Virus record (IMG/VR): IMGVR_UViG_3300022745_000051
Coordinates: 1-46,023 of that record
Source: a virus
DNA: 46,023 nt
Reading direction: 5' to 3' (one strand)
The position numbers and the translations under genes are program-made. This document shows, piece by piece, positions 2,110-42,885 of the stretch (positions within the stretch are counted from its first letter, which is position 1; each line of letters starts with the position of its first letter). Below the pieces are notes generated by a model. That model did not search any database. It worked only from the letters and a program-made list of their open reading frames with translations, and was not told the origin of the DNA.

Positions 2110-2339
2110 TGGAAGAACATAGCCCTTTCCGCGCCCGGTGGCGCCCGTGGCTAGGTTGGATAGGCTTGAATGTGGTAGCATTCCAGGGAATAGGTCTTCC
2201 TGTCCTGAATGCTATCCTTTCCTTCTTCGGAAGGACTAGCTTACCTTACATGCCCGCGGAACTCTTTTGGGCTAGCTGTGCCGTTACTCTAGGAACAGCC
2301 GGCCTACGTACAATTGACAAACTAAAACAGCCTAAATGA
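2109..2339 (+). CDS. Putative holin, three-TM type
   Basis: A 76-residue protein with an arginine-rich N-terminus (RARWRPWLGWIG) followed by hydrophobic segments at about 16-36 and 50-68. The RPWLGW pattern at the start of the first membrane helix and the small size match the three-helix holin group related to gene-transfer-agent release holins. Holins form lesions in the inner membrane that time lysis. It is coupled to the membrane protein upstream by TGATG and to the ribonucleotide reductase downstream by an ATGA overlap. A second holin of a different class is at 42891-43118, so one of the pair may be an antiholin or pinholin. Family assignment is by pattern from memory. Confidence 0.55.
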   Translation: MEEHSPFRARWRPWLGWIGLNVVAFQGIGLPVLNAILSFFGRTSLPYMPAELFWASCAVTLGTAGLRTIDKLKQPK

Positions 2340-4330
2340 CTACACCCTCAGCCCGAGCAGCAATCATTACTCGTCGTACCTATAACCGCCCGCTTAATCC
2401 TGAGGGAACTGTCTTTGAAACATGGGAGCAGACGGTTGATCGATGCATCGAGCACCAGAAGTGGCTATGGGAGCGGGCTTCCTGTGGCACCGGTCTATCG
2501 GTAAGCAACCTAGAAGAGCTTGCGGAACTGCGGGAACTCCTCCTGAATCGTAAAGTCGGGCTTAGTGGGCGAACATTGTGGCTTGGTGGCACGGATATCG
2601 CCAAGACACGAGAAGCATCGCAGTTCAACTGCGCCTTCATGAACGTTCGGACTGTCCATGACGTAGTAGATCACACATGGTTGCTGCTTAACGGTGCTGG
2701 TGTGGGCTCACATCCTATGCCGGGAACCCTAAGCGGCTTCCAAGTGCCTATCAAGAACATCGAGTTCATCAAGAGCCAGTTCACGAAGGAAGATTGGGAA
2801 GCTGGTAGGCATGGCCGAGAAGAGAACATTGAGACATTCGAGCCTATCTCTGGTAAGTGGACTATTAGTGTCGGCGATAGTGCTGTTTCCTGGGCTAAAG
2901 CAGTCGGAAAGCTCATGGCCGGGAAGTACCCAGCTACTACCTTGGTAATCGACACTAGCCAGATTCGCTCTAAAGGCATCAGGCTTCGTGGTTATGGCTG
3001 GATTAGTGCTGGCGACCAGCCCCTCGCCGATGCGATGGAGGCTATCGCACGCTTGATGAGTCGTAGAGCTGGGCAGTTGTTGAGCTTTGCGAACCTGCAT
3101 GACATCCTGAACTGGATCGGTACTATCCTAAGTACTCGCAGGAGTGCAGAGATTGTCCTCTGTGACTATGATAGCCCGGATTGGGAGCAGTTCGCTACCT
3201 TCAAGAAGGATCACTGGCTCGACGGTAATCACCAGAGAGCTATGTCGAACAACTCCTTGGTATTCTGGAAGAAGCCTACGCAAGACCAACTGACGCACAT
3301 CTTCCAGATGATGCTTGATGCAGGCGGTTCGGAGCCAGGATTCATCAATGGAGCCGAAGCCAAGAAGCGTGCACCCTGGTTCGCAGGCGTTAATCCCTGC
3401 GGAGAGATTCTTCTGGCAGACAAAGGCTTCTGCAACCTAGTGAATATCCATGTAGGCCATGCAGATTTCCTTGAGGATCACGCTGCTTTGCTGAGAGCAA
3501 CTTGGATTGTCAGTCGAGCGAACTATCGACAGACCTGTGTAGACCTGAGGGATGGTGTCCTACAAGATGCTTGGCACCAGAACAACGAGTTCCTGAGGCT
3601 CTGTGGGGTATCCTTGACTGGTCAAGCTATGAGGCCGGACCTTACTGGATACGATTACCGGACTATCAGGAACACGGCAGTCAGTGGTGCCTACAGTATG
3701 GCTCATGAGCTGCACATGCCCTTGCCGAAGAATGTTACTACAGGCAAACCGGAGGGAACAATCAGCAAGTGTTACGACGCTACCGAGGGTGCTCACGTAC
3801 CTTTGGCTAAGTATATCTTCAACAATGTGGCTTTTGGTGGAGACGATCCACTAGTGCCTATCCTGAAAGCGGCTAACTATCGTGTCACTGACCATCCTAC
3901 TCGTCCTTATGACGTGCTGGCGTGCCTCCCGACTGCGTGGGAGTCGGTCAAGTTTGGACGGCACGGGAACTTGGAGGTTAACTCAGAGTCCGCCGTGATC
4001 CAGTTGGAGCGATATAAGACCCTGATGAGGGAGTACGTAGAGCAGAACCAGAGTGTGACGATCAGCTATGACCCGTGGGAAGTACCATTGGTCGTAGATT
4101 GGTTGATCGATAACTGGGATAACTATGTCGGTGTAAGCTTCTTGCTTAGAGCAGACCCTACTAAGACTGCGGCTGACCTAGGCTATGCATATCTACCGCA
4201 ACAACCAGTCTCTAAGGAAGAGTACGATTCCTATGTGGCTACTCTGCTGCCCCTTGATCTAGATAAAGACACAGGCGATAGCATGGTCCAAGTGGATGAT
4301 TGCTCTACAGGTATCTGCCCTATCCGGTAG
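2336..4330 (+). CDS. nrdJ: Adenosylcobalamin-dependent (class II) ribonucleoside-triphosphate reductase
   Basis: This 664-residue protein reduces ribonucleoside triphosphates to dNTPs with a cobalamin-generated thiyl radical. The active-site set of the monomeric Lactobacillus-type enzyme is present: Cys99 in FNCAF, the radical Cys355 and Glu357 in NPCGEI, Cys366 in GFCNLV exactly 11 residues later, and a C-terminal DDCSTGIC pair (Cys656/Cys661) for re-reduction by thioredoxin. It is somewhat shorter than the roughly 740-residue bacterial enzyme. It starts at an ATGA overlap with the holin and is the last gene before the large non-coding region, so it seems to be transcribed with the late/lysis genes, away from thyA and dUTPase at 14.8-22.3 kb. 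It would depend on host cobalamin and thioredoxin. No cobalamin riboswitch is seen. Confidence 0.93.
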   Translation: MTTPSARAAIITRRTYNRPLNPEGTVFETWEQTVDRCIEHQKWLWERASCGTGLSVSNLEELAELRELLLNRKVGLSGRTLWLGGTDIAKTREASQFNCAFMNVRTVHDVVDHTWLLLNGAGVGSHPMPGTLSGFQVPIKNIEFIKSQFTKEDWEAGRHGREENIETFEPISGKWTISVGDSAVSWAKAVGKLMAGKYPATTLVIDTSQIRSKGIRLRGYGWISAGDQPLADAMEAIARLMSRRAGQLLSFANLHDILNWIGTILSTRRSAEIVLCDYDSPDWEQFATFKKDHWLDGNHQRAMSNNSLVFWKKPTQDQLTHIFQMMLDAGGSEPGFINGAEAKKRAPWFAGVNPCGEILLADKGFCNLVNIHVGHADFLEDHAALLRATWIVSRANYRQTCVDLRDGVLQDAWHQNNEFLRLCGVSLTGQAMRPDLTGYDYRTIRNTAVSGAYSMAHELHMPLPKNVTTGKPEGTISKCYDATEGAHVPLAKYIFNNVAFGGDDPLVPILKAANYRVTDHPTRPYDVLACLPTAWESVKFGRHGNLEVNSESAVIQLERYKTLMREYVEQNQSVTISYDPWEVPLVVDWLIDNWDNYVGVSFLLRADPTKTAADLGYAYLPQQPVSKEEYDSYVATLLPLDLDKDTGDSMVQVDDCSTGICPIR

Positions 4331-22284: not shown

Positions 22285-23193
22285 ATGGCAGAGAAACTTA
22301 ATTACCTCAAGGCCGTAGAGTTCGACAAGTTGTCGGCAAGCTTTCGTAAGCGGTATCCTGATATCTCTTACCTTGCTGAAGAGAACCAAGAAGGTCTTCG
22401 CTGGTTATGGCAACCGAAGTATGACGGCTGTTATGTGCGAGTTAATCTGCGAACAGGTAAAGCTTTTAGCCGAACGGGTGAGGCTGTTCCACATCTTAGC
22501 TTGACGGCCACTGAGCTATCCTACTTATACCGCTTTACGGATTACAAGTGGTTGATCGGGGAAGCATGGAGCGCGTCTATGCAATTCCCTGAGATATCGG
22601 GTATCTTCCGTACCAAGGACGTAGGCAAGGTGCCTATTGACAAGCGCCTATTCATCGCTGCTCATGATCTGCTGATGGATGACGAAGATCCCAGGCCCTA
22701 TGAGTACCGTCTGAAGAGCTTGTCTCGTACACTCGACGACTTCCAGCCGCTGTATGTTATCTGTCCGACGTACCCGCAGTACCTGCGTCTTGGCACCAAC
22801 TACAAGTCTCTCGCAGCAGAGTATGTATCACGCGGCCATTACGACGGCCTAGTAATTAAGGATGGCACTGCTCCTTATACTTGCGGCTTGGCTAAGGAAG
22901 GGCAGATCATCAAGGTTAAACCCTCTTTCTCACTGGATCTACGTGTCGCAACAATCATCACAGAGTTCGGGGAAAAGACCGGGCGTAAAGTCTACACTCT
23001 CCAGATTAGGCACGAGGGTAAGGGCCGCGGGCATAGCTTTGTCGGTTCTGGTATGCCTCATATACTCCCTCCTGATCTTACTGTGGGATGTATCGTCGAG
23101 GTAGAGTTCATGGGCTGGACTGAGGATGGTCACCTTCGAGAGCCGCGATTCAAAGGCGTTCGACACGATAAGGTAGAGGCAGACTACGAATGA
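22285..23193 (+). CDS. ATP-dependent DNA ligase
   Basis: A 302-residue ligase of the T7 gp1.3 type. The adenylation motif is at KYDG (Lys45). ELIGEAW-like motif III is represented by LIGEAWS, YDGLVIKDG is motif IV, and IIKVKPS is motif V. An OB-fold of about 80 residues follows. Start ATG 22285 has GGAGG six bases upstream. It joins Okazaki fragments and nicks. ATGA-coupled to the RNA polymerase gene, an arrangement typical of phiKMV-like phages. Confidence 0.93.
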   Translation: MAEKLNYLKAVEFDKLSASFRKRYPDISYLAEENQEGLRWLWQPKYDGCYVRVNLRTGKAFSRTGEAVPHLSLTATELSYLYRFTDYKWLIGEAWSASMQFPEISGIFRTKDVGKVPIDKRLFIAAHDLLMDDEDPRPYEYRLKSLSRTLDDFQPLYVICPTYPQYLRLGTNYKSLAAEYVSRGHYDGLVIKDGTAPYTCGLAKEGQIIKVKPSFSLDLRVATIITEFGEKTGRKVYTLQIRHEGKGRGHSFVGSGMPHILPPDLTVGCIVEVEFMGWTEDGHLREPRFKGVRHDKVEADYE

Positions 23194-25658
23194 AACAACT
23201 TACCCAGGTAGAAGTCGAAGAGCAGATGTATTACGGCGGCATCAAGCGGGCAACCGCTATGATGGACTCTGCTGAGAAAGCAGGAAGGGCATCTACCATG
23301 CCTTATGCCGCAAGCATCATGCGACAGTTTGTTATCCCCCTGGCCCTAGCGATCACTGAGGATATCGATTACAGCCTGACTCGTCCTGGGCGAAGGAATG
23401 CACACGTTACGCTGCTGGAAACTCTGGACGCACAGGCAGTAGCCCTGCTGTCGGTGAGGGCTATCCTTAATACCTGCCTAACAGATCAGGCTGATAGCCG
23501 AGCAGTAGCCACCGCTGTTGGCCGGACTATCCACGGCGAACTTGTTCTCTCTCAGGTAGAGGCCCATAACCCCGAGCTTTATCATACCCTGGTATCTAGC
23601 CTAGCTCGTCGCCTCAGCAAGGATGAGCGGCACCGCGTTACCTTAATGAAGTTGCAAGCTGCTAAGGCAGGCATCAAGATTGTCGAGTGGCCAGTAGGTG
23701 CGCGAGACATTGTTGGCCTGTATGTTATCAGCTTGCTTGAGACTGCGGGTATGGTGTGGCTCGATGCACCAGCTAACAACACTGCTGTGGCTGGGGCCGC
23801 ATCAGGCTACCGACGCAGGCAGAAGCGAATGATGGGCCTTACCCCGGAAGTGCTTGATCTAATCGACACTATAAAGGATCACGTAGCTTTGTCTGCGCCG
23901 ATCTTTGGGCCGTGCGTTGAGCCTCCCAAGGACTGGATTGATAACTTCGAGGGCGGATTCCATACTGAGAAGCTTCGTAATGCTGGGCGTACTCGCGGCT
24001 TCGTTATTGCGCACGGTTCCTCACGTCATCTGTACCGGCAACATGCATCGCCTATCGTATGGGATGCAGCTAATACCCTTCAGCGCACTGCATGGCGGGT
24101 CAATAAGCCGCTGCTGAGTGTGGTGCGAGAAATCGCCACTACCCGTGAGTGGGGTGAAATTGTGGCTAACGCCCGTCCTCCTAAGCCTGAGCGACCGGCA
24201 TGGCTGGTTGACGGCGGGAAGGCAGACAACATCCCCGAAGACCAGCAGGAAGAGTTCCGTAATTGGAAGCATGCTGTGCGGGACTGGCATACAGCAACGC
24301 GACTTAGCGGTGTGAAGTTCGGGCGATTCAAGGTGGCTATGCAGTCTGCCACTATGTTTGAGGATTACCCTAACCTGTACTTCGTCTATCAAGCAGACAG
24401 TCGAGGTAGGCTGTATCCCTTGACCTATGGCATGAGCCCACAAGGTAGCGACCTTAGTAAGGCCCTTCTCCACTTCGCCAAAGGTGAGCCGCTTGAGTCC
24501 CCGGATGCTATTCGTTGGTTCATGGTTCATGGTGCGAACAAGTACGGCTTCGACAAAGCGCCTATGGAAGAGCGTCGGTCCTGGGTGGCGGATCATCATG
24601 ATGCTATCATGGCCGCAGCAGAGAACCCTCTCGATGTTCGCTGGTGGGAAGAAGCCGATGCGCCTTTGCAGTTCCTTGCATGGTGCCTAGAGTATCGGGA
24701 CTGGCAGAACTCAAGTGGTGTCTTCATGAGCCACCTGCCCATCAGTATGGATGGTAGCTGCAACGGACTGCAACACCTGAGTGCACTTCTTCGTGACGAG
24801 ATTGGTGGCGCTGCTACTAACCTTACGCCATCGGAGAAGATGAGTGACATCTATAGCCTTGTTGCTCAGGCTGCTGAGAAGCGGTTACGTGCTGACACCC
24901 CGCAGGATGAGGAAGTAGATCGCTTGCGCCTCAAGTGGCTACAGCATGGAATCAAGCGTAAGGTAGTCAAGCGATCTGTGATGACCACTCCTTACGGTGT
25001 AACTCGCATGTCTGCTACGGACTATATCGTAGAGGACTATCTTCGCCGAGAGCCTACTCCGTTCTTGCCGAAGGAATACCGCAAGGCTGCTATGGTTCTC
25101 ATGGCATATGTATGGCCTGCTATCGGAGACATCGTAGTCAAGGGACGCTTAGCTATGGCTTGGCTAAAGCAGAGTAGTAAGGCTATCCTCCAGCACGCTA
25201 GGCTGGAAGATCCGGTCATCCAATGGGTGACACCGTCAGGCTTCCTAGCTACACAGACCTATACGGAAATCGAAGAGATTCGGGTTAAGACACGGCTCAT
25301 TGGTAGCGTCAAGATTCGAGTAGTCTCTGAGACAGAGGATGCTGACAAGAGTAAGCACGCTAGTGGTATGGCACCGAATTTCATTCATAGCCTTGATGCT
25401 GCGCATCTGCACTTAGTCTGTGCGAAGATGAAAGAGCTAGGTGTAGACTCCCTGGCTATGGTTCATGATGACTACGGTACACATGCTGCGCATGCAGAGA
25501 CGCTGGCTAAAGCGACTAGAGCTACGTTCGTAGAGCTGTACTCTAAACACGATCCACTCAAAGAGTTAGCAACCTTGTACCAAGGTCTTCCTCCTATTCC
25601 GCCTAAGGGTTCGCTAGATATAACCGAGGTATTAAAGAGTGAGTTCTTCTTCTGTTAA
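23190..25658 (+). CDS. Single-subunit phage RNA polymerase
   Basis: An 822-residue T7-type polymerase, the hallmark of Autographiviridae. Catalytic residues align: Asp521 in MDGSCNGLQH (T7 Asp537), Lys594 and Tyr602 in RSVMTTPYG (T7 Lys631/Tyr639), and Asp760 in MVHDDYG (T7 Asp812); ADSRGRLYP is the conserved DxxGR motif. The N-terminal region that opens promoters is less conserved. It should transcribe the genes downstream from CCGATTGTGC-type promoters. Its location late in the early half, next to the structural genes, means late transcription starts late, as in phiKMV, and early genes depend on host polymerase for longer. Confidence 0.97.
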   Translation: MKQLTQVEVEEQMYYGGIKRATAMMDSAEKAGRASTMPYAASIMRQFVIPLALAITEDIDYSLTRPGRRNAHVTLLETLDAQAVALLSVRAILNTCLTDQADSRAVATAVGRTIHGELVLSQVEAHNPELYHTLVSSLARRLSKDERHRVTLMKLQAAKAGIKIVEWPVGARDIVGLYVISLLETAGMVWLDAPANNTAVAGAASGYRRRQKRMMGLTPEVLDLIDTIKDHVALSAPIFGPCVEPPKDWIDNFEGGFHTEKLRNAGRTRGFVIAHGSSRHLYRQHASPIVWDAANTLQRTAWRVNKPLLSVVREIATTREWGEIVANARPPKPERPAWLVDGGKADNIPEDQQEEFRNWKHAVRDWHTATRLSGVKFGRFKVAMQSATMFEDYPNLYFVYQADSRGRLYPLTYGMSPQGSDLSKALLHFAKGEPLESPDAIRWFMVHGANKYGFDKAPMEERRSWVADHHDAIMAAAENPLDVRWWEEADAPLQFLAWCLEYRDWQNSSGVFMSHLPISMDGSCNGLQHLSALLRDEIGGAATNLTPSEKMSDIYSLVAQAAEKRLRADTPQDEEVDRLRLKWLQHGIKRKVVKRSVMTTPYGVTRMSATDYIVEDYLRREPTPFLPKEYRKAAMVLMAYVWPAIGDIVVKGRLAMAWLKQSSKAILQHARLEDPVIQWVTPSGFLATQTYTEIEEIRVKTRLIGSVKIRVVSETEDADKSKHASGMAPNFIHSLDAAHLHLVCAKMKELGVDSLAMVHDDYGTHAAHAETLAKATRATFVELYSKHDPLKELATLYQGLPPIPPKGSLDITEVLKSEFFFC

Positions 25659-29771: not shown

Positions 29772-30356
29772 ATGCTCAAACTCGACGCAGTCAATCGCCT
29801 GCTCGGCTATGCCGGGTTGACTCCTGTCAGTAGTCTCGTCCTTCCGCACTCGCGTGTCCCTTCCGCTGTGGCCTTGCTTGATCGGCACAGTCGGACTGTT
29901 CAGGGTGTCGGCGGTGGCTTCTGGTTCAATCGAGAAGTCTTCGACCTTAGCCCTGACGCTACAGACGGCCACGTCTATGTACCTGATGATGTTCTCCAGC
30001 TAACTGTGCTGGATCGTAGCATCAAGGCTGTGCAGCGTGGGCGTACTCTATTGGACCTTGCTTCTAACACTAGGGTCTTCACTCGTAAAGTGAAGGTCCG
30101 GATCATTCGCCTTATTCCCTTCGACGAGTTGCCTGAGGCAGCCGCAGACTATATCTCGCTCTGTGCAGCGCTAGAGTTCCACCGCACTATCGATGGTGAC
30201 ACTGCTACTCGGCAAGAGATTGAGAAGGATAAGGCTATGGCACATGCTCGCCTAGAGGGTGAGAACACTCGTCAGAGCAGGGAGAACCTGCATGACGGCT
30301 CGTATAACCTTCGCCGGCTGCGCTCTGCTAGTCGCAATCATGGAGTAATTCGATGA
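29772..30356 (+). CDS. Tail tubular protein A (gatekeeper)
   Basis: A 194-residue protein matching T7 gp11 (196) in size and place. The N-terminal LDAVNRLLGYAGLTPVSSLV and the segment GGFWFNREVFDLSPDATDGH, then VYVPDDVLQLTVLD, are typical of this family. It forms the ring between portal and nozzle. AGGAG precedes ATG 29772. ATGA overlap with the nozzle gene. Confidence 0.92.
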   Translation: MLKLDAVNRLLGYAGLTPVSSLVLPHSRVPSAVALLDRHSRTVQGVGGGFWFNREVFDLSPDATDGHVYVPDDVLQLTVLDRSIKAVQRGRTLLDLASNTRVFTRKVKVRIIRLIPFDELPEAAADYISLCAALEFHRTIDGDTATRQEIEKDKAMAHARLEGENTRQSRENLHDGSYNLRRLRSASRNHGVIR

Positions 30357-33145
30357 GCCGAGAAGGTGGTTCCTATTCCTCGCTGCTGCTCGGCGTAACT
30401 GAGCAATCGTTTCATTCGGCTCGTGAGGGTTTCTGTCTTGAGCAGACCAACATGATGCCGGATATTGTCCGCGGTCTTACTCGCCGCCAGCCTAGCAAGA
30501 TGCTTGCTGAGACTCTGGTCGGCAACAGTGGTGGCTTGATCGATACGGTTAATACCCGCACTCAGGACTTCAGGACGTTCGTCTATGATTACTCGGGTAA
30601 GCAGTACGTAGTCCTGTACCCTGCTGCGGCAAGCACAACCATCGTCCCTATGGTCTACAACCTGACAGATCAGGTGTGGATGAATGTAGTGATCGACGAG
30701 GGAGATAGCGCTGTAGCTACCCGTATGCAGAGTGGCATTAGTGCCATCACTGCTACAGGCAAGGACGTACTTCTCGCAAGCTACGGCGATGTGCCTACGG
30801 TAAGCAGCACTGATGCCTGGGGTGCAGTTGGCAACCAGTCCAAAGCATCCATCTGGATTCGTGCTGGCAACTTTGCACGTACCTACACGGTGCGTATCAA
30901 GAAGCGCAGCACTGGGGTTACTACAGAACACTCTTATACCACTCCGACGGCTACCTATACGGGCACGCTAGACACTAGTGGGGTTCCTATCTTCGCTGCT
31001 GATCCGGCGGGTGGCACGCAGACAGATACTGAGGCCATCGCAATAACCTCTAGCGGCGGCTTTGGGTTAGGCGCTCTCACCTGGGGGAGCTGGTCCCCTT
31101 CTTCCTTGTCCTTGAAGCAGAATGCGACTACGTTGACCAACGTCAGTCCTTCTGATCCATCAAGTGCAAGTGAATACCGCTGGGATGCGGGTAGTTCTAC
31201 GGTTAAGGTGCATTCGTCGCTGGTAGGCGCTACTAATATTAGCGTTACCTACACACATACGAAGACTATCTCTAATCCGCAGTACACTCTCACCATTGCT
31301 GCTCTAACGTCAGCCTTTAATTTGGCGACGGCACAGCACTTGGTAGAGGCAACAGCCGCTATCCAACCCGCTGCTATCGCTACGGCACTAGCTGGGGTGC
31401 TTACTACTGCCGGCTTCACGGTCACAGTAAACAGTACAGCCATTGAGGTAGATGATGCCTCCGAGGTTACTGGATCAGACGGTGCAGACAATAGTTCTAT
31501 TCGTGCTGTTGGGGCTACTTGTGCAAGCATCAATGATCTACCCGCTTATCACGAGTCCGGTAAGATTGTTCGGGTTAGGGCGCGGGAGACAGACGATGCC
31601 CTGTACTATAAAGCTGTTCCTCGTAAGAGCGGCGACAGCGGCTTCGTCCTAGTTAACTGGGAAGAGACTGCTGGTACGGTGCATACACTAGACCTGAAGC
31701 TTCTCTTCGGCCGAGCACACGGGACTGACTTCTATCTGGCTAGTACATCAGGGCACATGAATGCTCTGACTGGTCTGACGGATGCTCCAGTGTACTCATC
31801 TAATGAGTGCGGGGACATTGACAGCGTGCCGGTTCCTACCTTCGTGGGCAGGGTTATCCGAGTACTGGCTGTGTTTCAGGATAGGTTGATTATCGCAACA
31901 GCGGGGGTGGTCAGATGCAGCCGCATCGGGGACTACTTCTATCTGTTCAGGTCAACACTCCTTAGCGTGCTGGCTAACGATGCCTTCGAGACTAGTGCGA
32001 AGGGTAGAGAGGATGATGACATCCGCTTCGCCGTCCTTTACGATCAGAACCTATTCTTGTTCGGACGGGATGCTCAGTACGCCCTAGGAGGAAGGACAGC
32101 CTTAACGGCGCTGAACCCTAACCTTCCTGTCATCAGCTCGCATAAAGGTGCAGCGTTCCTTCCTCCAGTGGCAGCGGGCTCAACCTTGTTCTACATTAAG
32201 CAGGGCGATGTAGCATGGTCTGCACACCAGCTTAGGCCCGGTGTTCTTGTTGACACTCCCGAGAGTTTCCCGGTAAGTGCTCAGCTTGACTCCTACCTAG
32301 ACGGTCAAGCAATTGAGGCTATTGGTGTGCCTAAGCCCACAATGCTCATGGTACGTAGCAAGGGGAATAGGCGTGCACTGTATACCCTGAACTATCAGGA
32401 TAGCGAGCAAGGTCGCCAGCAAGAGGCATGGCATAAGTGGATCTATCCTTCGCAAGGAGGTAACCTAATTGGGCAAGCGTCTGTTGATGGTGGTGTGGTT
32501 CTGTTCTCTGTGCGGCCCGGTAACGGAAACCGCGTATGGGCCGTAGCTGACTTCCAGCCTTTGCTGGCTAACGTGGCAAGCGTTCCCTACCTCGACTCCT
32601 GGCGCACTTACGCCAATGTCTTGGATGGAGACAACAGCATCACCGAGGCCAGCGCAGGTAGTATCAGTGCTGCATACAATAGCACACCGGCTCACGCCTT
32701 GATCGGCGGTATCCTCACGGATGCTGCTGGTTTGGTTGTAGAGTTCGATGACTCAGAGAACCTAGTCGTTGGGCTAGATAATGATGCGTCTTACCGTCCA
32801 CAGTCTCCGAGTATCCGGGACAGTAACGGCCGAGTCAGCATGCAGGGGTTACTGGTTGTGTCCTCGATCACCGTGTCGTTCACAAACGCCGGTGGTCTGG
32901 GCTATGATCTAGTGACCCAGGCTGAGACAAGGTCAGACACATACTCCGGTCGAACGCTAGGTGCTGTGGATAACATCATTGGAACAGAGCCTATCACTAC
33001 AGGCACTCTTGACATCCCTATTGGGGAAGAGACTGAACGTAGCACTCTTACTCTTCGGAGCAGGAAGTGGTTTCCCTTAACTCTATCTCGCCTAGCTTGG
33101 CGAGGACACTACTTCAATCGCACACGGGTTGTGCAAGGAGGTTAA
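30353..33145 (+). CDS. Tail tubular protein B (nozzle)
   Basis: A 930-residue protein equivalent to T7 gp12 (794), the hexameric tail nozzle. The opening SYSSLLLGVTEQSFHSAREG, with LEQTNMMPDIVRGLTRR soon after, is characteristic, as are VVRCSRIGDYFYLFRSTLLS, YDQNLFLFGRDAQYALGGR, and the late VWAVADFQ region. It is about 130 residues longer than T7 gp12; residues 150-360, Thr/Ser/Ala-rich and predicted beta-type, look like an inserted domain that may bind fibres or receptor. No catalytic motif seen. Confidence 0.92.
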   Translation: MSREGGSYSSLLLGVTEQSFHSAREGFCLEQTNMMPDIVRGLTRRQPSKMLAETLVGNSGGLIDTVNTRTQDFRTFVYDYSGKQYVVLYPAAASTTIVPMVYNLTDQVWMNVVIDEGDSAVATRMQSGISAITATGKDVLLASYGDVPTVSSTDAWGAVGNQSKASIWIRAGNFARTYTVRIKKRSTGVTTEHSYTTPTATYTGTLDTSGVPIFAADPAGGTQTDTEAIAITSSGGFGLGALTWGSWSPSSLSLKQNATTLTNVSPSDPSSASEYRWDAGSSTVKVHSSLVGATNISVTYTHTKTISNPQYTLTIAALTSAFNLATAQHLVEATAAIQPAAIATALAGVLTTAGFTVTVNSTAIEVDDASEVTGSDGADNSSIRAVGATCASINDLPAYHESGKIVRVRARETDDALYYKAVPRKSGDSGFVLVNWEETAGTVHTLDLKLLFGRAHGTDFYLASTSGHMNALTGLTDAPVYSSNECGDIDSVPVPTFVGRVIRVLAVFQDRLIIATAGVVRCSRIGDYFYLFRSTLLSVLANDAFETSAKGREDDDIRFAVLYDQNLFLFGRDAQYALGGRTALTALNPNLPVISSHKGAAFLPPVAAGSTLFYIKQGDVAWSAHQLRPGVLVDTPESFPVSAQLDSYLDGQAIEAIGVPKPTMLMVRSKGNRRALYTLNYQDSEQGRQQEAWHKWIYPSQGGNLIGQASVDGGVVLFSVRPGNGNRVWAVADFQPLLANVASVPYLDSWRTYANVLDGDNSITEASAGSISAAYNSTPAHALIGGILTDAAGLVVEFDDSENLVVGLDNDASYRPQSPSIRDSNGRVSMQGLLVVSSITVSFTNAGGLGYDLVTQAETRSDTYSGRTLGAVDNIIGTEPITTGTLDIPIGEETERSTLTLRSRKWFPLTLSRLAWRGHYFNRTRVVQGG

Positions 33146-33841
33146 ATGTACGGGCTCATTATTGGGGCTGCTACAGCAGTCCTTGATGGGCAAGTATCTA
33201 ATCGCTTTGCACGAGTGCAGCGCGATCTGGAACTTGTCAAGCAACATGCTGCTAACGTTGGCTCCGCTGCCGCCAACAAGACTGCGGCTACGGTCGGGTC
33301 GCTGGCCCGGTGGCGACAGACGGTGCTGAATAACCGCCGTTTGCTGGGGGGCCAGGACGCGATTACAGCCCTCCAGGTCAATTCTTCGCGTGCGTCCGCA
33401 GCGGAGCAGCAGGGCGGGCTGGTCGCGTCTCTGAGGGCCGCTGAAGACGCCGGAAGGGCATCCGCGCAGGCGGCCTTTGCCGGCGTGTCCGGGCAGGCCG
33501 TCGCCGCCGTCGACCTCAGCAGCAGGGTCCGAGAGTCTATGATGGCTGAGGCTGCTAAGAGGAATGGCGCTAGTCGTGACTTTGACTACAAGATGCGGCT
33601 AGCTCGTGTTGGTGCAGGGATGATCCAAGACTTGGACTCTTCTGCTATCCTAGACAATATGGACGTTAGTGGTTATGTGCCACGCGCTGTGGAAGAACAC
33701 AGTGCAGTGGCTGATGCTTTCTCTGGTTTCCTTACCTCATGGTCTAGGGGATATCAGAGTGACTTTGTAAGGGAGAGTCCTACCCAAGGTATAACGGCTA
33801 GCCCCACCAACACAGGAGGTAGTAATGGCTTTGGTGACTAA
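33146..33841 (+). CDS. Internal virion (ejection) protein, T7 gp14-like
   Basis: A 231-residue Ala-rich helical protein. T7 gp14 (196 residues) occupies this place and is ejected first to form a pore in the outer membrane. The N-terminus (MYGLIIGAATAVLDGQVSNR) is hydrophobic; residues 20-150 form long helices. Bases 33275-33540 are clearly richer in G+C than the rest of the gene, as if a segment had been exchanged with a phage of another base composition. AAGGAGG precedes the start. The next gene overlaps by 17 bases. Confidence 0.8.
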   Translation: MYGLIIGAATAVLDGQVSNRFARVQRDLELVKQHAANVGSAAANKTAATVGSLARWRQTVLNNRRLLGGQDAITALQVNSSRASAAEQQGGLVASLRAAEDAGRASAQAAFAGVSGQAVAAVDLSSRVRESMMAEAAKRNGASRDFDYKMRLARVGAGMIQDLDSSAILDNMDVSGYVPRAVEEHSAVADAFSGFLTSWSRGYQSDFVRESPTQGITASPTNTGGSNGFGD

Positions 33842-36125
33842 CAGTGACAATACCCTAGGAGCCCCTACCGTAGGGCTGGGGCAGACCGCCACCTTTGCTG
33901 TCGATCTTCCTCAGGCCGAGGCGCTTAGCTTGCCCGGCCAACCGGGGGTTAATGTCGGAATACAGGGTGGGCAGGTTATCGACCGTAGCCAGTACAATGC
34001 TTTGCCCCAGGAGCATGAGACTGCCCTAGGCGCAGCAATCAAGCAAGTAGCGGACAAGTACATCGGCCTAGAGGCTAAGCAGCTTAGGGCCGACCGCTAC
34101 AATGCAGGTATGATGGAAGCTGCCCAAGGTAAGGCTATCAAGGATATCGTCCGCGATACTCCTTGGTACAGCCAACTGTGGGGTGCAGGTGATGCGGTAG
34201 AGGGTGCTCGTGCTTATGCCGGGCATGAGACGGTAGGTAAAGTCTCTAGTATGGTTGCGGCAGAACTGCCTAACACCAAGTCTATGAGCCCGGATCAGGC
34301 AACGGAGTACTTCCGAGGTAAGCTTAATCCGCTTCTTACTGGGGATGGCCCAACTGACGCCTATGTCATGCAAGCCTGGGGGCAACAGCTTCCTGGCCTG
34401 ATGTCGGCACAGGCTAAGTTGCATTATGGCTGGCGCCAGGAGCGAGCACTTGATGCATTTAACGGTGCGCTCAATGGGCAAGCTAGGCACTTAGCTAATG
34501 TAGGCGATCTGGTAGCGGGTGGGTTCATGACTAAAGATGACCTATCTGTTGCTGGTCAACAGGCTTTAGCTATGTCCATGCCACCTGAGGGTATGGATGA
34601 GAAAGTCTGGAAGAGCACGATCACAAGTAAGATCCGTGAGTGGGCAGCAGATGGGAACATGCATGCAGTGAATGCCTTCCTTGATGCAGGTCTACAGGAT
34701 CACCTTACTGGCGATGAGTCTCGTCATCTGGAGCAGGCTGTTATTGTCGGCGATCAACGTGCTCGTACTAAGTACACAGAGCTATGGCAGCAAGACCTTC
34801 TCAAGCTTCGCCTTCAGGCTGAGCGCCCGCAAGAGGGGCAGACTACCAATGAGCTTTTGTCTGGCATCGACCAGATCAACCAGCAGTTTAAGACAGCTAG
34901 TGGAAGTAAGGCTCCCCTGATTAGTCCTCATGAGCGTGAAGCACTTGCTAGTCGCTCTTCGCTGTATATTGATGCCGCTCGTCGTGCTCGGATGCAAGAT
35001 GACATGAAGACTGCAGGTAGGGTCGCTGTGGCAGAGACTAAGGACGCGCTCATTAGGCGAGCCATTGCAGAGGGCAACACCGGTCAACTGGTCGTCGCTA
35101 AGGTAGCCACCGAGAACGACATCGATCAGACAATCTCTAGGATTGTGGCTGAGTCACCTGGGCAAGCAGTACCTGTACTGGCCGCGGCCTTTAGGCAGGA
35201 CGGTAAAGTAGTCAAGCAGATTGCAGATGAGCGTCTGCGTTCTGTGGACACTATGCTTCAGGCTGGCAACAATGGGTATGATGCCTCTGCTGTGGGAACA
35301 GTCTACAATGACTGGCTGTCCATGCACACGGTGAACCCTAACTTGTCTGCTGCCTACTACGGTAAGCGAGACACGGATATGCTGCGCTTCCATCAAGCTA
35401 AGCAGTCCATGGGGTCAGATGCAGCAGCGTTTACTCAAGCCTTCATGATGAACCATAAAGGCAATACACCGGACCGTAAGGTTCTTGAGGCAGCGGTGAC
35501 GGCTGTTAGTGCTGAGTACGACTATCATGTGGCCTGGGCTAGGCCGGATAAGTATGACATCGATCCGAGCAGCCGAGATACTCTTGCCTCACTTATTGCA
35601 CCCGAAGTCCAACGAAGGACTGCTGGTGTAGTGGCCGACGAGGCAGAGGTGGCTAGCAGCGTCTTGAAAGAGACGATCAATCGCGGCGATGCGGAAGTGC
35701 TTGGCGGGTATGTCATCCTTAATCCGACTAACGATAAGCGCAAGTTCGGGGATTCCCTGGCTACTGCTGTTGTTAAGACAGACTCTCCTATTCCTACGGA
35801 TAAGGTGAACACAGCATTTAACCAAGCTATTCAACGTAAGTTGTATGGTGACGGCAAGACCGCTGGCGTACTGCGTGATACTAGTTTGTTCGGCAAGGAC
35901 AAGATTAAGCACGCAACTATTGTTCGCCTTCCTAGCGTAGGTGATGTACCTGTCATCCAGTTCCACGGTGTGTCAGAAGATGGGCAAGTAGTTGACTTCC
36001 CTATCACCCAGCGTGAGGTACTACTTAACTTTAATGCCGCCGCTACCCCCGCAAGCCAACCGCCTCGCGGCAATCGTCCTCGTGACCTAACACGTCCTAG
36101 CGACTTCTTCCAACAGAGAGACTAA
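33825..36125 (+). CDS. Internal virion (ejection) protein, T7 gp15-like
   Basis: A 766-residue, mainly helical protein in the position and size class of T7 gp15 (747). With gp14- and gp16-like proteins it forms the internal core and then the trans-envelope channel for DNA. The first 60 residues look disordered; the rest is Gln/Ala/Asp-rich with a few conserved-looking blocks (AYYGKRDTDMLRFHQAKQSM; HVAWARPDKYDIDPSS). A basic Pro/Arg tail (PPRGNRPRDLTRPSDFFQQR) ends the protein. GGAGG lies just before ATG 33825. Confidence 0.82.
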   Translation: MALVTNSDNTLGAPTVGLGQTATFAVDLPQAEALSLPGQPGVNVGIQGGQVIDRSQYNALPQEHETALGAAIKQVADKYIGLEAKQLRADRYNAGMMEAAQGKAIKDIVRDTPWYSQLWGAGDAVEGARAYAGHETVGKVSSMVAAELPNTKSMSPDQATEYFRGKLNPLLTGDGPTDAYVMQAWGQQLPGLMSAQAKLHYGWRQERALDAFNGALNGQARHLANVGDLVAGGFMTKDDLSVAGQQALAMSMPPEGMDEKVWKSTITSKIREWAADGNMHAVNAFLDAGLQDHLTGDESRHLEQAVIVGDQRARTKYTELWQQDLLKLRLQAERPQEGQTTNELLSGIDQINQQFKTASGSKAPLISPHEREALASRSSLYIDAARRARMQDDMKTAGRVAVAETKDALIRRAIAEGNTGQLVVAKVATENDIDQTISRIVAESPGQAVPVLAAAFRQDGKVVKQIADERLRSVDTMLQAGNNGYDASAVGTVYNDWLSMHTVNPNLSAAYYGKRDTDMLRFHQAKQSMGSDAAAFTQAFMMNHKGNTPDRKVLEAAVTAVSAEYDYHVAWARPDKYDIDPSSRDTLASLIAPEVQRRTAGVVADEAEVASSVLKETINRGDAEVLGGYVILNPTNDKRKFGDSLATAVVKTDSPIPTDKVNTAFNQAIQRKLYGDGKTAGVLRDTSLFGKDKIKHATIVRLPSVGDVPVIQFHGVSEDGQVVDFPITQREVLLNFNAAATPASQPPRGNRPRDLTRPSDFFQQRD

Positions 36126-39100
36126 ATGGATTCAATACGCTCCGCGCTAGTTCGCGCAATCTATAGCCAGGAGTCTAACTCCGGCCAAGTCGATACCTCG
36201 ACCCCGAACTATGCCGGGGCGCTTGGTCCCATGCAAGTTACGAAGCCAACTTTTGTGGGGATGCAGAACAATGGCTTGATCCCACAAGACTGGAACTGGG
36301 AAGATCCTGAGCATAGCACACGAGCAGGCATCGCTCTGCTCAATAGCTACATGGATAAGTACGGCGATGATCCCGCCTTAGCTGCTGCTGCCTACTATGG
36401 TGGTGAGAAGGCCGTTAAGGATGGGCAGATCGTTGACTTCGGTGATCGTAAGAACCCTAAGGCACCGAGGACTTCTGAGTACGCTCAGATGATCCTGTCC
36501 CGTATGGGTCTGAAGCCAGGAGGTAAGCAGGCAAAGGTTCCTGCTAAGCTGCTGCCCTCACAGACCCCTGATGAAATGCTGGCTGAGGCTATGCCTGGGC
36601 CGGTAGGGCAAAGCGGCTCTTCTGCTATTCCCGTTATCTCTGATACTGCTCCGAAGATTACAGCTAATCCGCAAGCAGCGGTAGATCAGGCCAAAGCTGC
36701 TGAGAGCAGTGCACAGAAAGAAGCACAGTTCGAGCAAGACCGTTCGGTGCTAGACATTGCGCAAGATAGCTTCATGCACCAAGGCGTGCTCGGAGCTATC
36801 CTAAAGGCAGCAGCTAAACCAGCCTTTAAGCCGGACCCTACTTGGGCTCTCGATCCTAAGCTACTTAATGGTATGTCTGAAGATGAGCAACAGGAACTCA
36901 AGGATGCTTCTTCTAAGGAAGAGGCAGACTGGGCCATGTTCGACATCAAGGACAGGCGCGACATGGAAGAGCGCATCGGCCTAAGTGGTGCTGGTGCGGG
37001 TATCCTAGGAAGCATGATTGCTGGGTTGCCTGAGGGATACCTGCTCGGCCTCGGTGCCGTCAAGGGCATGGAGCTTGCTAAGGTTGGTGCAACCCAGCTT
37101 GCTGCTCAAGGTAGGGCTGGTGCCGCCTGGGCGGCGGCGGCTGCCGAGAACGTTGGTGGCAATATCGCTGGGACCGCTGCTGCGCAAGCAGCACAAGGTC
37201 GATTCAATACTGAGGACTATGCTACAGCAGTAGCGATGGGTCTGGTGATTACGCCACTAGCCGCCCTTGGTTCTCTGTCTCACGCTTCCTCAGTTCGTGC
37301 GGCAGAGGATGCAGCAAAGATGCGTGCAGATGCAGCAGCTAAGCTAGAAGAGCGTAGCAGGAACGCGGCAGCTAATCTGCCGCCTGATGCTACGCCAGAG
37401 CAAGTCGCTGCTGAGATGACTCGCCTTGAGCAGGCTGAGCTTGCCCAGGCGACGGAAATCAAGAAGGCGTCTAGGAAACTGATTGACGCTCAAACGGATG
37501 AGACAGGCCGGCCTCTGCCCACCGCTGACGAAGAAGCGGCAGTTAAAGCAGCGCAAGAAGATATTAAGCCTGTAGATGTTGCAGAGCGTCCGCCAATCAA
37601 GCAGGAAGAGACGGCTGCAATTAACCAGGGAGACAGCGTTAAGGCTGAGGAAGTTAAGTCGGAAGTAATTCCTACGGCTTCTGTCAGGACCGAGAAGCTG
37701 CGGACTGATGCAGAAATCCTCGCTGTGACTAAGCCTGACGGTACGCCAGCAGTCACCAGCAGTTTCACTCTGGCTTCTCGTCTTGACGAGTTGGCTGGGA
37801 GTAAGCTGAAGGAAGTTGGCTTGTTTGCCAAGCGCCTTCGTGAAGCGCTCAAAGATGACAGCATCAAGGTCTATGTATCTGACACCGAAGGACTGAGGGC
37901 CCTTAGTCGAGGCACAGCAACCCGTTCGCACTACATGCCCAGCGATCATGCTATCTATCTGGATAGCCGCAGCATGATGGTCGGCCAGGAGTGGGTCACG
38001 CTTCATGAAGCAGGTCATGCACTCACTGAGTACAAGATCGCCTACGGTAAGGCCAATCCTGACAGCGCTCATGGCAAGATCGTTACACAGATGGAGGCTA
38101 TTCGTAATATAGCTAAGACGGAACTCGATGGGCCTAACGGCGCTAAGTTCAAGACTGATGGCGTAGCTCCTTATCTGCTCGACAATGTGAGCGAGCTTAA
38201 TGCCGGGCTGTGGTCTACTCGCAGGGGTATGGGTCAGTTCGGTGATCTGCTGCGCAGTATCCCCTACCAAGGGACTACGCTGCTTAGCAAGTTCGTTGGT
38301 GCTGTGCAGAAACTGCTAGGGATTGCTACCAAAGAGCGGCCCTTGTTTCTTCAGGCACTGGGTCTGAGCGAGAAGTTGATCGATACTCCTCTACATGTGT
38401 CTGTCGTAGGCAGGGATGGTAAAGCGTTATCTGTTAGGCAGGCACCCAGTGATTTCCCAGGAGACACCCGCGCCAAGGAACTTGGTATAGATCTACTCCC
38501 CGGAGCAACCGCTAACGAGAAGGCAGAGGCACGCGTAATCCGCAGCCTCTATAGTAAGGCTGAAACACCTGCTGCACCATGGAACAAGGTAGACCCCGAG
38601 CGCCTAAAGACCCTAGCAAAGAACAAGTTGTTCGATGTAGCAAGCACCAGTGTGCACCTGCTAAGCAGCAAGAATCCTATTTTACGCATGGTTGGCGCAA
38701 CCTTGGTGGAGAACCCTGCCGGTGCTGCAGGGCGTGGGCAGACAGCTTCTATTGGCTCATGGTTGAACTATCGGAAAGCCCTGGGCAACTTCCTACCTGA
38801 GCTTCAGAATGCCTATGGCGTATGGCGCCGGGCCAACGGTGGCTCAGTACTAGAGGATGTCTTTGGGGGTAAGCGCTGGGCGCAGTTCAATCGGTCTGTA
38901 GCTGAGGAGATTGAATCTCGCGGGCGGGGTAGTAGTGCTCATGCAGACCCAAGCATCCAGGCTGCAGCCAACACGATTGAAGGTGTGTTTGAGCGTTTGC
39001 GCAAGATGCAGATTGACTCGGGAACACTAGGCCATCAAGCCCTGCCTGAGTCAAGTCGCGGCTACATGCCGCACCGCATGAGTGCGGAGAAGGTGCGCAA

Positions 39101-40841
39101 CCTGACCACGCAACAGCGAGAGCAACTGCATGCTGCTATGGCAGATCAGTTCGCAACCATCGAAGGGTTCGATCCCACGTTCTCGGCAGAGCTTGCTTCT
39201 AAGTACCTGTCGAGGATTGAAGATCGCGCCACAGGTGGGTGGACTGTTCCTATCAATCCGCATGACCCAGCGGCTGCTGACATCGTTGAGCAAGCGATGA
39301 GGGCTGCTGGCCTTAGTGGTGAAGAGCTGCGGTCCGCAGTGCAACGGTTTACACGTGGTGCTGCTAGCCACACAAAGGGCCGCCTCAATCTTGATCTTCT
39401 TGAGGATCAAGGTGGCTGGCGTATGCTGGACCTGTTCGAGACGGACATGGCTAACCTTGTTCGTCAGCAGGCACTGCGAGTAGCTGGTGAAGCCGCTCTG
39501 GCGGATCACGGTGTCCTTGGTAAGCCGGGGCTGCGGTTGCTTCGGCAAGCGGCTGCTCTGGGCAATGAGGGCGTGCGTGCTACGGCAGACGAGCTTGCCG
39601 CCTTCGACCAAGTAGCCGCTGAGTTGCTTGGAGAGCCATTCGGTACTCACGGTACTAAGTGGCTCGACCGGGCAATGCAGGTTACTTCGCTCGCCCGCCT
39701 AGGTGGTATGGGCTTTACCCAGTTTGCTGAAGCCTTGAATGGCATCTGGCATGTTGGTGCAACCCGTGCCTTCGAGAGTGTCGGTGGCGTGCTGCGTCTT
39801 CGCAATGAAGCTAAGGCATTGGCCCGTGGAGAGAAGGTTGACAACCCTCTGCTTCATAGCATCGAGGCTTATAGCGGTGTCGAATTCGGGGCAGAAAGTT
39901 ATAAGATTAAGTTCCCGTTCGACAACGGTAGCCTAGAGTATAACCAGTACGGCAGGGACAGCGTGACTCTGGTGGATCGCTTGCTTCGCGGTGGAACACA
40001 CCTGCAAGGCAAGCTAAGCCTGTGGCGCGGTATCCACGCCGCCCAGCACCGTGGTATGGCTGAACAGATCGTGGCTAAGGCAGTTCGATACATCAGCGAA
40101 GGAAAGAGCGATACAGCTCTGGCTGATATGGGTATTGGCCCTGGGCTAGTGGCTAGGTTGAAGGACGACATACAAACCGGTGCGGCTGTGTGGGATAACG
40201 GTAGGCTGACAGAGTTCGACATTGCACGCATCCGAGACAAGGATGCAGCTAACGAGTTCGTTCAGGCTATCCATCGTGGCACAAACCAGATCATCCAGGG
40301 TACATTCACTGGTGAGACAGGTAAGTGGGCGCATGATGGGTTGCTTAGGTTGCTGACCCAGTTCCGTACATTCAGCATCACGAGCATGGAGAAGCAGTGG
40401 GCTAGGCAGCGAGGTAACTACGGCACCGCTGGTGCGCTAGGTATCTTGCTTGGTACTATGTCAATTGCTTGGCCGATCTACGTAGCACGTGTGTATGCCT
40501 CTAGCATAGGTAAGTCTAACCAGCAAAGCTATCTAGATAAGCAACTCACGCCTGCGCAGATCGCTAGAGCAACGTTGAACTACGTTGGTATCTCTGGTCT
40601 GAGTGGCGATCTACTCGATGGCCTGACTGCTCTCACAGGAGCAGGCAAGGTTACTGGTGGCCGCGCTGCGGCAGAGACGGGCTTCATTGGAACAGTGGTT
40701 GCACCTGCTGCTGGTGTTGCGGATGACATCTGGAAGGGATTACAGAACAGTAAAAATGGGACAAATCCCCACGACCTAATCAAATCCTTGCCGTTCAGCA
40801 AGCTACCTATACTACAGCAGGGCATAAACGCGCTGCAATAG
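36126..40841 (+). CDS. Giant ejection protein with lytic transglycosylase and embedded HExxH domain
   Basis: A 1571-residue counterpart of T7 gp16 (1318). Residues 1-125 are a soluble lytic transglycosylase: catalytic Glu16 in IYSQESNSGQ, then LGPMQVTKPT and AAAYYGGEKAV; it opens the peptidoglycan for the ejection channel. Residues 280-390 contain hydrophobic helices (GAGAGILGSMIAGLPEGYLL) and 390-500 a charged coil. Residues 570-720 hold a second, unexpected module: WVTLHEAGHALTEY, an HExxH zinc signature at 627-631, with Glu690 in NVSELNAG as a possible third ligand. T7 gp16 has no such motif to my knowledge; it recalls metallopeptidase modules of large polyvalent phage proteins. The C-terminal half (830-1571) is helical and would form the channel. 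Confidence 0.88.
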   Translation: MDSIRSALVRAIYSQESNSGQVDTSTPNYAGALGPMQVTKPTFVGMQNNGLIPQDWNWEDPEHSTRAGIALLNSYMDKYGDDPALAAAAYYGGEKAVKDGQIVDFGDRKNPKAPRTSEYAQMILSRMGLKPGGKQAKVPAKLLPSQTPDEMLAEAMPGPVGQSGSSAIPVISDTAPKITANPQAAVDQAKAAESSAQKEAQFEQDRSVLDIAQDSFMHQGVLGAILKAAAKPAFKPDPTWALDPKLLNGMSEDEQQELKDASSKEEADWAMFDIKDRRDMEERIGLSGAGAGILGSMIAGLPEGYLLGLGAVKGMELAKVGATQLAAQGRAGAAWAAAAAENVGGNIAGTAAAQAAQGRFNTEDYATAVAMGLVITPLAALGSLSHASSVRAAEDAAKMRADAAAKLEERSRNAAANLPPDATPEQVAAEMTRLEQAELAQATEIKKASRKLIDAQTDETGRPLPTADEEAAVKAAQEDIKPVDVAERPPIKQEETAAINQGDSVKAEEVKSEVIPTASVRTEKLRTDAEILAVTKPDGTPAVTSSFTLASRLDELAGSKLKEVGLFAKRLREALKDDSIKVYVSDTEGLRALSRGTATRSHYMPSDHAIYLDSRSMMVGQEWVTLHEAGHALTEYKIAYGKANPDSAHGKIVTQMEAIRNIAKTELDGPNGAKFKTDGVAPYLLDNVSELNAGLWSTRRGMGQFGDLLRSIPYQGTTLLSKFVGAVQKLLGIATKERPLFLQALGLSEKLIDTPLHVSVVGRDGKALSVRQAPSDFPGDTRAKELGIDLLPGATANEKAEARVIRSLYSKAETPAAPWNKVDPERLKTLAKNKLFDVASTSVHLLSSKNPILRMVGATLVENPAGAAGRGQTASIGSWLNYRKALGNFLPELQNAYGVWRRANGGSVLEDVFGGKRWAQFNRSVAEEIESRGRGSSAHADPSIQAAANTIEGVFERLRKMQIDSGTLGHQALPESSRGYMPHRMSAEKVRNLTTQQREQLHAAMADQFATIEGFDPTFSAELASKYLSRIEDRATGGWTVPINPHDPAAADIVEQAMRAAGLSGEELRSAVQRFTRGAASHTKGRLNLDLLEDQGGWRMLDLFETDMANLVRQQALRVAGEAALADHGVLGKPGLRLLRQAAALGNEGVRATADELAAFDQVAAELLGEPFGTHGTKWLDRAMQVTSLARLGGMGFTQFAEALNGIWHVGATRAFESVGGVLRLRNEAKALARGEKVDNPLLHSIEAYSGVEFGAESYKIKFPFDNGSLEYNQYGRDSVTLVDRLLRGGTHLQGKLSLWRGIHAAQHRGMAEQIVAKAVRYISEGKSDTALADMGIGPGLVARLKDDIQTGAAVWDNGRLTEFDIARIRDKDAANEFVQAIHRGTNQIIQGTFTGETGKWAHDGLLRLLTQFRTFSITSMEKQWARQRGNYGTAGALGILLGTMSIAWPIYVARVYASSIGKSNQQSYLDKQLTPAQIARATLNYVGISGLSGDLLDGLTALTGAGKVTGGRAAAETGFIGTVVAPAAGVADDIWKGLQNSKNGTNPHDLIKSLPFSKLPILQQGINALQ

Positions 40842-41586: not shown

Positions 41587-42885
41587 ATGCCAGCAAACCA
41601 TCGCTGTCACCCGTTACCCTTCCCAGCACATGCCTTACCTCCGCCCCCTCCTGTGACAAGTACAGTGTTCTGGTCATCCCCGCTTACGGGCGAACCGCTT
41701 CACTACTCTCTATCTAGCGTGGTAGCCTTTGACTCAAACCTATCGGACCCTATAATCGTGTTTGAAGACACGGGGTCTGGTATTGCTATTTCGTCAGCGG
41801 CTGGGACGAATTTCATCCAGAATGAGGATGACTCCCCTGCACTCAGGACTACTACAGAGGCGTTCCTTCTAGAGGCTGAGGCATTCATTTCGTCTGATGC
41901 AAATACTGTGTCAGTGAACTTCAATTTTGCAGTGGACAATGACTTGTTTGCTATGGCCTTTGAGGTTGGAGCAGATGAGTCGGGTGTCCCTTACCTGTTC
42001 TGGACTACTCCTGCTAATGGTGGCGTATTCGAGCACACAAACGTAGACACCTGGGTTCCCCTATCAATTCGTTATGAGCACGGCGTATCCACTGTCAAGT
42101 GGAATGGTGCTACTGTTGCATCGTTCACTGATGCAGCTATTGGTAGCCCAGTCTACCTTCTCAAGAGGGTAAGTGCTAATATCCAAGGTGATGGCACTGG
42201 GGTTGTAAAAGTTCGTAACCCGGTTCTCAGCGCCTTGGAGCCCGTGACCACCGTGCGCCGGGAGCTGCTGTTCGCACAGGCGTCCTCAGCAGGGGGCCTG
42301 GGCGCCTCGTGGAGCGCCTCTTCGGGGTCGTGGGTAGGTAGGGCAGCCCCGGGAGGCGCGTCGACCCGCAGCACGTCCGCAGGGACACCGTCGCTAACTT
42401 ACAACGGTGCAGACTCGGCGGCAATCTCGGCAGATTTCGTGCGTTTCCTTATGGCCTTTACTCGTGACGCAACCTATGTTACGGGCGAGCCTCATGGAGG
42501 TATTCGTTATGACTACAGGTTTGATCGTAGCGGCAGCGAGTTAGTTACTGTTAGAGTAGAGTGCTTAGACAACGCCGCTCAAGATGGTACGCTGGACGTT
42601 ACTGTATACGAAGGACACAGCAATGTGTTCCGAGAAATGGTAAGTGCTAGCTGGCTACCGGACCTTAATCAAATATCGACGGTAGTCGTTCAGTGGCTTA
42701 ACGGCTTCTGGATCATACAGGATCGGAGCTTTGATATGGGTGTGGTTGAGCACGAGCCGCCTGGTGGCGGCGCGCCTGGCCCAGTTGACTTCACTGGGGC
42801 TACCCTTACCGCAGCTACTGTGAGTATTACTCCTGGAGCTACGTCTGACCCAGCATGGGTTAATCATCTTCAAGTAGTAGGATAG
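41587..42885 (+). CDS. Tail appendage with lectin-like beta domains
   Basis: A 432-residue protein starting one base after the fibre adaptor, with AAGGA upstream. A Pro-rich N-terminus (LPPPPPV) is followed by two regions of concanavalin/laminin-G-like composition (residues 45-210, with FAVDNDLFAMAFEVGADESG and VPLSIRYEHGVSTVKWNG; residues 215-400), then a short Pro/Gly linker and a C-terminal strand segment. It is likely the receptor-binding or sugar-binding component. Bases 42225-42400 are strongly GC-rich relative to the flanks, indicating exchange within the gene, as is common for adsorption proteins. Exact fold is inferred. Confidence 0.6.
   Translation: MPANHRCHPLPFPAHALPPPPPVTSTVFWSSPLTGEPLHYSLSSVVAFDSNLSDPIIVFEDTGSGIAISSAAGTNFIQNEDDSPALRTTTEAFLLEAEAFISSDANTVSVNFNFAVDNDLFAMAFEVGADESGVPYLFWTTPANGGVFEHTNVDTWVPLSIRYEHGVSTVKWNGATVASFTDAAIGSPVYLLKRVSANIQGDGTGVVKVRNPVLSALEPVTTVRRELLFAQASSAGGLGASWSASSGSWVGRAAPGGASTRSTSAGTPSLTYNGADSAAISADFVRFLMAFTRDATYVTGEPHGGIRYDYRFDRSGSELVTVRVECLDNAAQDGTLDVTVYEGHSNVFREMVSASWLPDLNQISTVVVQWLNGFWIIQDRSFDMGVVEHEPPGGGAPGPVDFTGATLTAATVSITPGATSDPAWVNHLQVVG

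Follow-up and report, generated by a model that had tools for sequence, protein, structure and literature searches.

In this study, we conclude that the gp16-type ejection protein of the virus analysed here very probably contains a zincin domain, at residues ~545–765 (37758..38420, + strand), as alignments, an AlphaFold2 model and an hhalign match to a domain of the N4 virion RNA polymerase (vRNAP) indicate. The window, meaning the whole stretch of 46,023 nucleotides under analysis (IMG/VR record IMGVR_UViG_3300022745_000051), encodes this internal virion protein of 1571 aa as an ORF at 36126..40841 (+), assigned to phrog_342 (PHROG, 1.3e-189). An SLT lytic transglycosylase domain occupies residues 3–99 (36132..36422, +; Pfam PF01464, 1.7e-13), and the conserved C-terminal channel core spans residues 780–1571 (38463..40838, +), tblastn matches to phage internal virion proteins beginning near residue 780. 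Within the zincin domain, the folded core comprises residues 558–714 (37797-38267, +) and includes the only HExxH of the protein, HEAGH at residues 627–631 (38004..38018, +), with His627 and His631 as predicted zinc ligands and Glu628 as predicted general base; Glu690 (38193..38195, +) is the predicted third ligand. The original prediction, made from the DNA letters and their translations, had described an HExxH metallopeptidase-like domain in a 1571-residue gp16-type protein with an N-terminal lytic transglycosylase. The protein assignment, the extent claimed for the domain and the segment TLHEAGHALTEY at residues 625–636, which includes HEAGH, were all confirmed, and the domain now has a conserved motif and a predicted zincin-like fold.

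Membership of the T7 gp16 type is supported by the PHROG and SLT matches and by the late-operon neighbours. The gene order runs from the tail nozzle protein (30353..33145, +; Pfam Phage_nozzle, 6.7e-70) through a small, gp14-type internal virion protein (33146..33841, +; phrog_5745, 3.9e-17) and a gp15-type internal virion protein (33825..36125, +; phrog_3883, 1.6e-81) to the gp16-type gene, followed by tail fibre and terminase genes, and a gene for a single-subunit-type phage RNA polymerase lies directly upstream of the structural genes at 23190-25658. Downstream of the tail-fibre gene is a 432-aa protein (41587-42885, +) for which Pfam and PHROG scans gave no match. T7 gp16 is likewise a gp16-type ejection protein with an N-terminal SLT domain, but it does not match the zincin domain profile, as had been anticipated for the T7 homologue. 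An HERLH at position 559 of T7 gp16 was taken as a chance occurrence, since the protein has no profile match.

The predicted zinc site is strongly conserved. With the domain alone as tblastn query, so that the motif was not used in the search, 40 phage records were matched, and HExxH was kept in all ten distinct homologues sampled from them, which are ~30–36% identical to the window sequence. In an alignment of 16 sequences, whose other rows are 16–35% identical to the window and include very divergent copies, H627, E628, H631 and E690 are the sole invariant columns; Glu690, put forward earlier as a possible third ligand, is thus a Glu throughout, and HEAGH, whose loss in homologues had been named as evidence against the domain, proved conserved. 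The motif was also present in 39 of 39 sequences (38 IMG/VR loci and the window), a set biased by the inclusion of the motif in the search patterns. Relatives were further gathered blind to the motif, with the C-terminal core only, giving 59 non-redundant gp16 proteins with enough upstream sequence. An HExxH lies 450–650 aa upstream of the core in 40 of these, compared with a mean of 0.56 and a maximum of 3 in 200 shuffles. Proteins lacking HExxH were mostly shorter, and HMMs of either zincin subtype (see below) found no degenerate trace of the domain in them, so the domain is either present with its active site or wholly absent. Pfam and PHROG scans of the window domain alone gave no match, nor did a plasmid search.

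Sequence profiles connect the domain to proteins of known structure. Searched against the PDB, the family profile matched 9sfn_G (3.5e-14), PhiM1 gp48 (8vb2_A, 1.7e-12) and 23sg_S (3.6e-6), while phmmer with the whole window protein found nothing there. The same profile matched phiKMV gp37 at 4.8e-17 and PhiM1_43, a protein of 1263 aa with the same length as 8vb2_A, at 5.5e-13 (locus L151, 4198-7989); both retain HExxH, as HEAAH in PhiM1_43. By sequence profile, the same domain is present in 9sfn_G, a 1337-aa 'Internal virion protein', and at residues 268–528 of the tetrameric ejection protein PhiM1 gp48 (PDB 8vb2). In the cryo-EM structure paper, BLASTP and DALI led to the label endolysin/exotransglycosidase-like for the latter domain (PMC11440229). 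Because it has HEAAH with H385, E386 and H389, the Glu of a THEF segment and the profile match, we read it as a zincin, and the published label may be wrong.

A profile–profile search, as suggested with the original prediction, matched the zincin domain of N4 vRNAP (hhalign, 94.4% probability, E 9.1e-8) with HExxH and Glu in register, whereas an unrelated control profile scored 0.3% in the same comparison. The N4 domain profile in turn matched 9sfn_G at 1.1e-5. This N4 region (aa 2130–2448, or C1 domain 2124–2375; PDB 9pnr) was assigned to the zincin superfamily by Iyer et al. (2017), and its HExxH was noted in the structure paper (PMC5512222, PMC12633501). Zincin-like MPTase domains in injected phage proteins, termed 'polyvalent proteins', were already described in 2017 (PMC5512222). 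These MPTases and N4 vRNAP resemble the window protein in their large size, multi-domain make-up and ejection from the virion, and in having HExxH with a downstream Glu; the N4 domain differs in residing in an RNA polymerase, whereas the window domain belongs to a channel protein of the T7 gp16 type that has an SLT domain. Compared with the polyvalent MPTases, the gp16-type domain forms its own subtypes, a DEFxAGL form and an exchangeable ExxAEQ form. The window domain itself did not match MPTase-PolyVal (PF18818) or, in the Pfam scan, Peptidase_M78 (PF06114), but weak Pfam matches among its relatives were repeatedly to zincin families, including MPTase-PolyVal (two relatives, best 0.0021) and SprT-like (0.015). 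Minigluzincins (abylysin, jannalysin) and the Peptidase_M78 proteins ImmA/IrrE likewise have a small HExxH...E fold; they differ in being small free-standing or regulatory proteins, and direct comparison with the window domain gave nothing significant. Taken together, these comparisons place the window domain in a known superfamily and a known kind of setting.

Distant relatives were also found in giant proteins (L055, L057 and L058). The two at L055 (2-10264) and L057 (2-10246) have ~3.4 kaa each and two HExxH sites ~270 residues apart, the second of which falls in a domain related to that of the window. L055 and L058, which were scanned, carry LPD39 and match DarB-like families, with further matches to DNA-methyltransferase families in L055, and by this domain content they are classed as polyvalent proteins. 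Another relative, of 2232 aa (L053, 1628-8323), combines the zincin with a match to GbpA_2 (N-acetylglucosamine-binding) and gave no PHROG match.

Structure prediction, the other computational check proposed at the outset, gave a zincin-like model rather than a fold lacking a zinc site. The AlphaFold2 run on 33 aligned sequences reached pLDDT 88.7 and pTM 0.83, and a second run on the trimmed core reached 92.9 and 0.87. The model proceeds from an N-helix through three strands to the HExxH helix (622–643), variable helices and the Glu helix (688–695), so that the predicted secondary structure has all features of the zincin core, that is, N-helix, three-stranded sheet and two C-terminal helices, in the order given for that core in PMC5512222. 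Foldseek against the PDB returned no significant E-value and lends weak support; its highest-probability matches were the minigluzincins jannalysin (4jix, 0.35) and, for the trimmed model, abylysin (4jiu, 0.82). The sequence homologue 8vb2_A was absent among the PDB matches listed, which may reflect the disorder of three loops of the PhiM1 gp48 domain in its published model (PMC11440229). Against predicted viral structures, Foldseek matched internal proteins from Bordetella phage BB8, Ralstonia phage RSB3 and Pseudomonas phage PAO1_Ab05, and there were weaker matches to IrrE, SprT-like and virion-RNAP proteins.

The domain is exchanged on a conserved channel core. Most core relatives carry a different zincin subtype, with HExxH and later ExxAEQ, whose profile is related to that of the window subtype at 95.6%. 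Peptidase_M78 was matched by this alternative subtype alone, in 8 of 28 members (Pfam, best 2.6e-5), and one member used as a query against phage records found nothing. In a core tree of 60 proteins, 41 had a zincin and 19 had none, and one clade (SH-aLRT 98) had the zincin in 39 of 39 members; two rows scored as 'other' have ITAEQ. The AGL subtype requires at least five changes even across well-supported branches, the exact count not being dependable in this quick tree made without bootstraps. The nearest core relative of the window (L060), with 68% core identity, nevertheless has the other subtype, and L023 and L073 are 61–85% identical in the core but 15–30% over the zincin region. Conversely, BB8, Bertil and L024 carry the subtype of the window on cores that are not detectably similar to its own by phmmer. 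The zincin slot is repeatedly refilled by a different subtype, and the catalytic residues are always kept.

We regard the domain as probably an active peptidase. T7 gp16 enters the cell along with the DNA, and by analogy the window protein would be delivered into the host in the same way. In the model that we propose, His627, His631 and Glu690 would bind zinc and Glu628 would act as the base; the gp16-type protein would be stored whole in the internal core and leave the virion together with the DNA, by analogy with T7, PhiM1 and N4; and the zincin domain would refold in the periplasm or cytoplasm and cleave a protein early in infection. Provided that the peptidase is active, its substrate is fairly likely to be mainly a host protein, since the protease is an accessory, exchanged on a channel that is itself conserved, and its catalytic residues are always intact. 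As a whole, the explanation of a Glu-zincin protease ejected with the DNA and cleaving a protein early, most likely of the host, is the one we favour, by a modest degree of confidence. An extension, put forward tentatively, is an interchangeable protease slot, in which phages would swap zincin subtypes, probably with different substrates, into a conserved channel, the ejectosome thus delivering proteases that act early on envelope, transcription or defence proteins of the host.

Alternatively, the targets of the zincin could be the ejection proteins, with gp16 or its partners cut in the capsid or, after ejection, domains freed or the channel opened and disassembled. Iyer et al. proposed autoprocessing as a main role for domains of this type and cited P1 DdrB (PMC5512222), and the window domain lies in cis with the SLT domain and with a channel core of very large size. 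Nevertheless, we consider this role rather unlikely. N4 vRNAP is packaged unprocessed (PMC5512222) and the virion model of PhiM1 gp48 includes the domain as an insertion in the hub (PMC11440229), which makes consumption by cutting inside the capsid unlikely; moreover, a target outside the channel is favoured over a maturation role because the domain is missing from T7 and from about one third of the sampled cores, has never been seen in degenerate form, and gives way to another subtype on cores that remain similar. Self-cleavage at a position within the swapped cassette would agree with the exchange pattern as well.

A purely structural or DNA- or partner-binding role of the zincin fold, with no peptidase activity, would agree with the proposal that loops of the PhiM1 domain, near the coiled DNA, guide it (PMC11440229). 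It is improbable, since the base Glu628 is invariant though dispensable for zinc binding, and a second, very different subtype that fills this slot has the same catalytic residues. Even less probable is a muralytic, endolysin- or transglycosidase-like domain that helps to open the peptidoglycan, despite the published label of PhiM1 gp48 (PMC11440229) and the passage of such proteins through the periplasm: the window protein already has an SLT domain, the phiKMV lysozyme is annotated in the neighbouring gp36 and not in gp37, and profile and fold point to zincins. No muralytic Pfam family matched the window domain or 32 relatives; whole PhiM1 and phiKMV proteins also gave no muralytic Pfam match, a weak result as the scan missed the phiKMV gp36 lysozyme too. 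Lysozyme domains being present already and the general base being invariant, muralytic and purely structural roles are both less likely than proteolysis. A chance origin of HEAGH within a helical linker can be dismissed, short as HExxH is and despite the unrelated HERLH of T7 gp16, in view of its invariance, its position, the enrichment over shuffles in the motif-blind set and the lack of degenerate domains.

Discussion of ejection proteins usually centres on their roles as channel and peptidoglycan hydrolase. A search of open-access papers found no report of a protease in gp16-type proteins, a 2022 review of ejection proteins makes no mention of a protease (PMC8954989), and none of the terms gp16, T7-like and internal virion occurs in the main text of the 2017 survey (PMC5512222). 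The putative zincin is widespread in T7-type channel proteins of autographiviruses, a distribution newly recognised here, and some phages probably inject a protease. Should the zincin be active, a protease would be injected at the onset of infection by many podophages, the well-studied phiKMV and, by homology, N4 among them, and its substrate could account for host take-over or defence evasion. Solved structures of homologues (8vb2, 9sfn and 9pnr) are available, and hosts of related phages include P. putida KT2440 and E. coli K-12; in ErraM, a KT2440 phage, the gp16 domain has HEITH at 512.

Two further genes of the window were observed. A free-standing ORF of 109 aa (392-721, +) has HELIH with a Glu-rich segment shortly downstream and is a possible minigluzincin, for which Pfam, PHROG and phage-record searches gave no match. 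A ribonucleotide reductase is encoded at 2336-4330 (+), with a weak match to the insertion domain of the B12-dependent class II enzymes.
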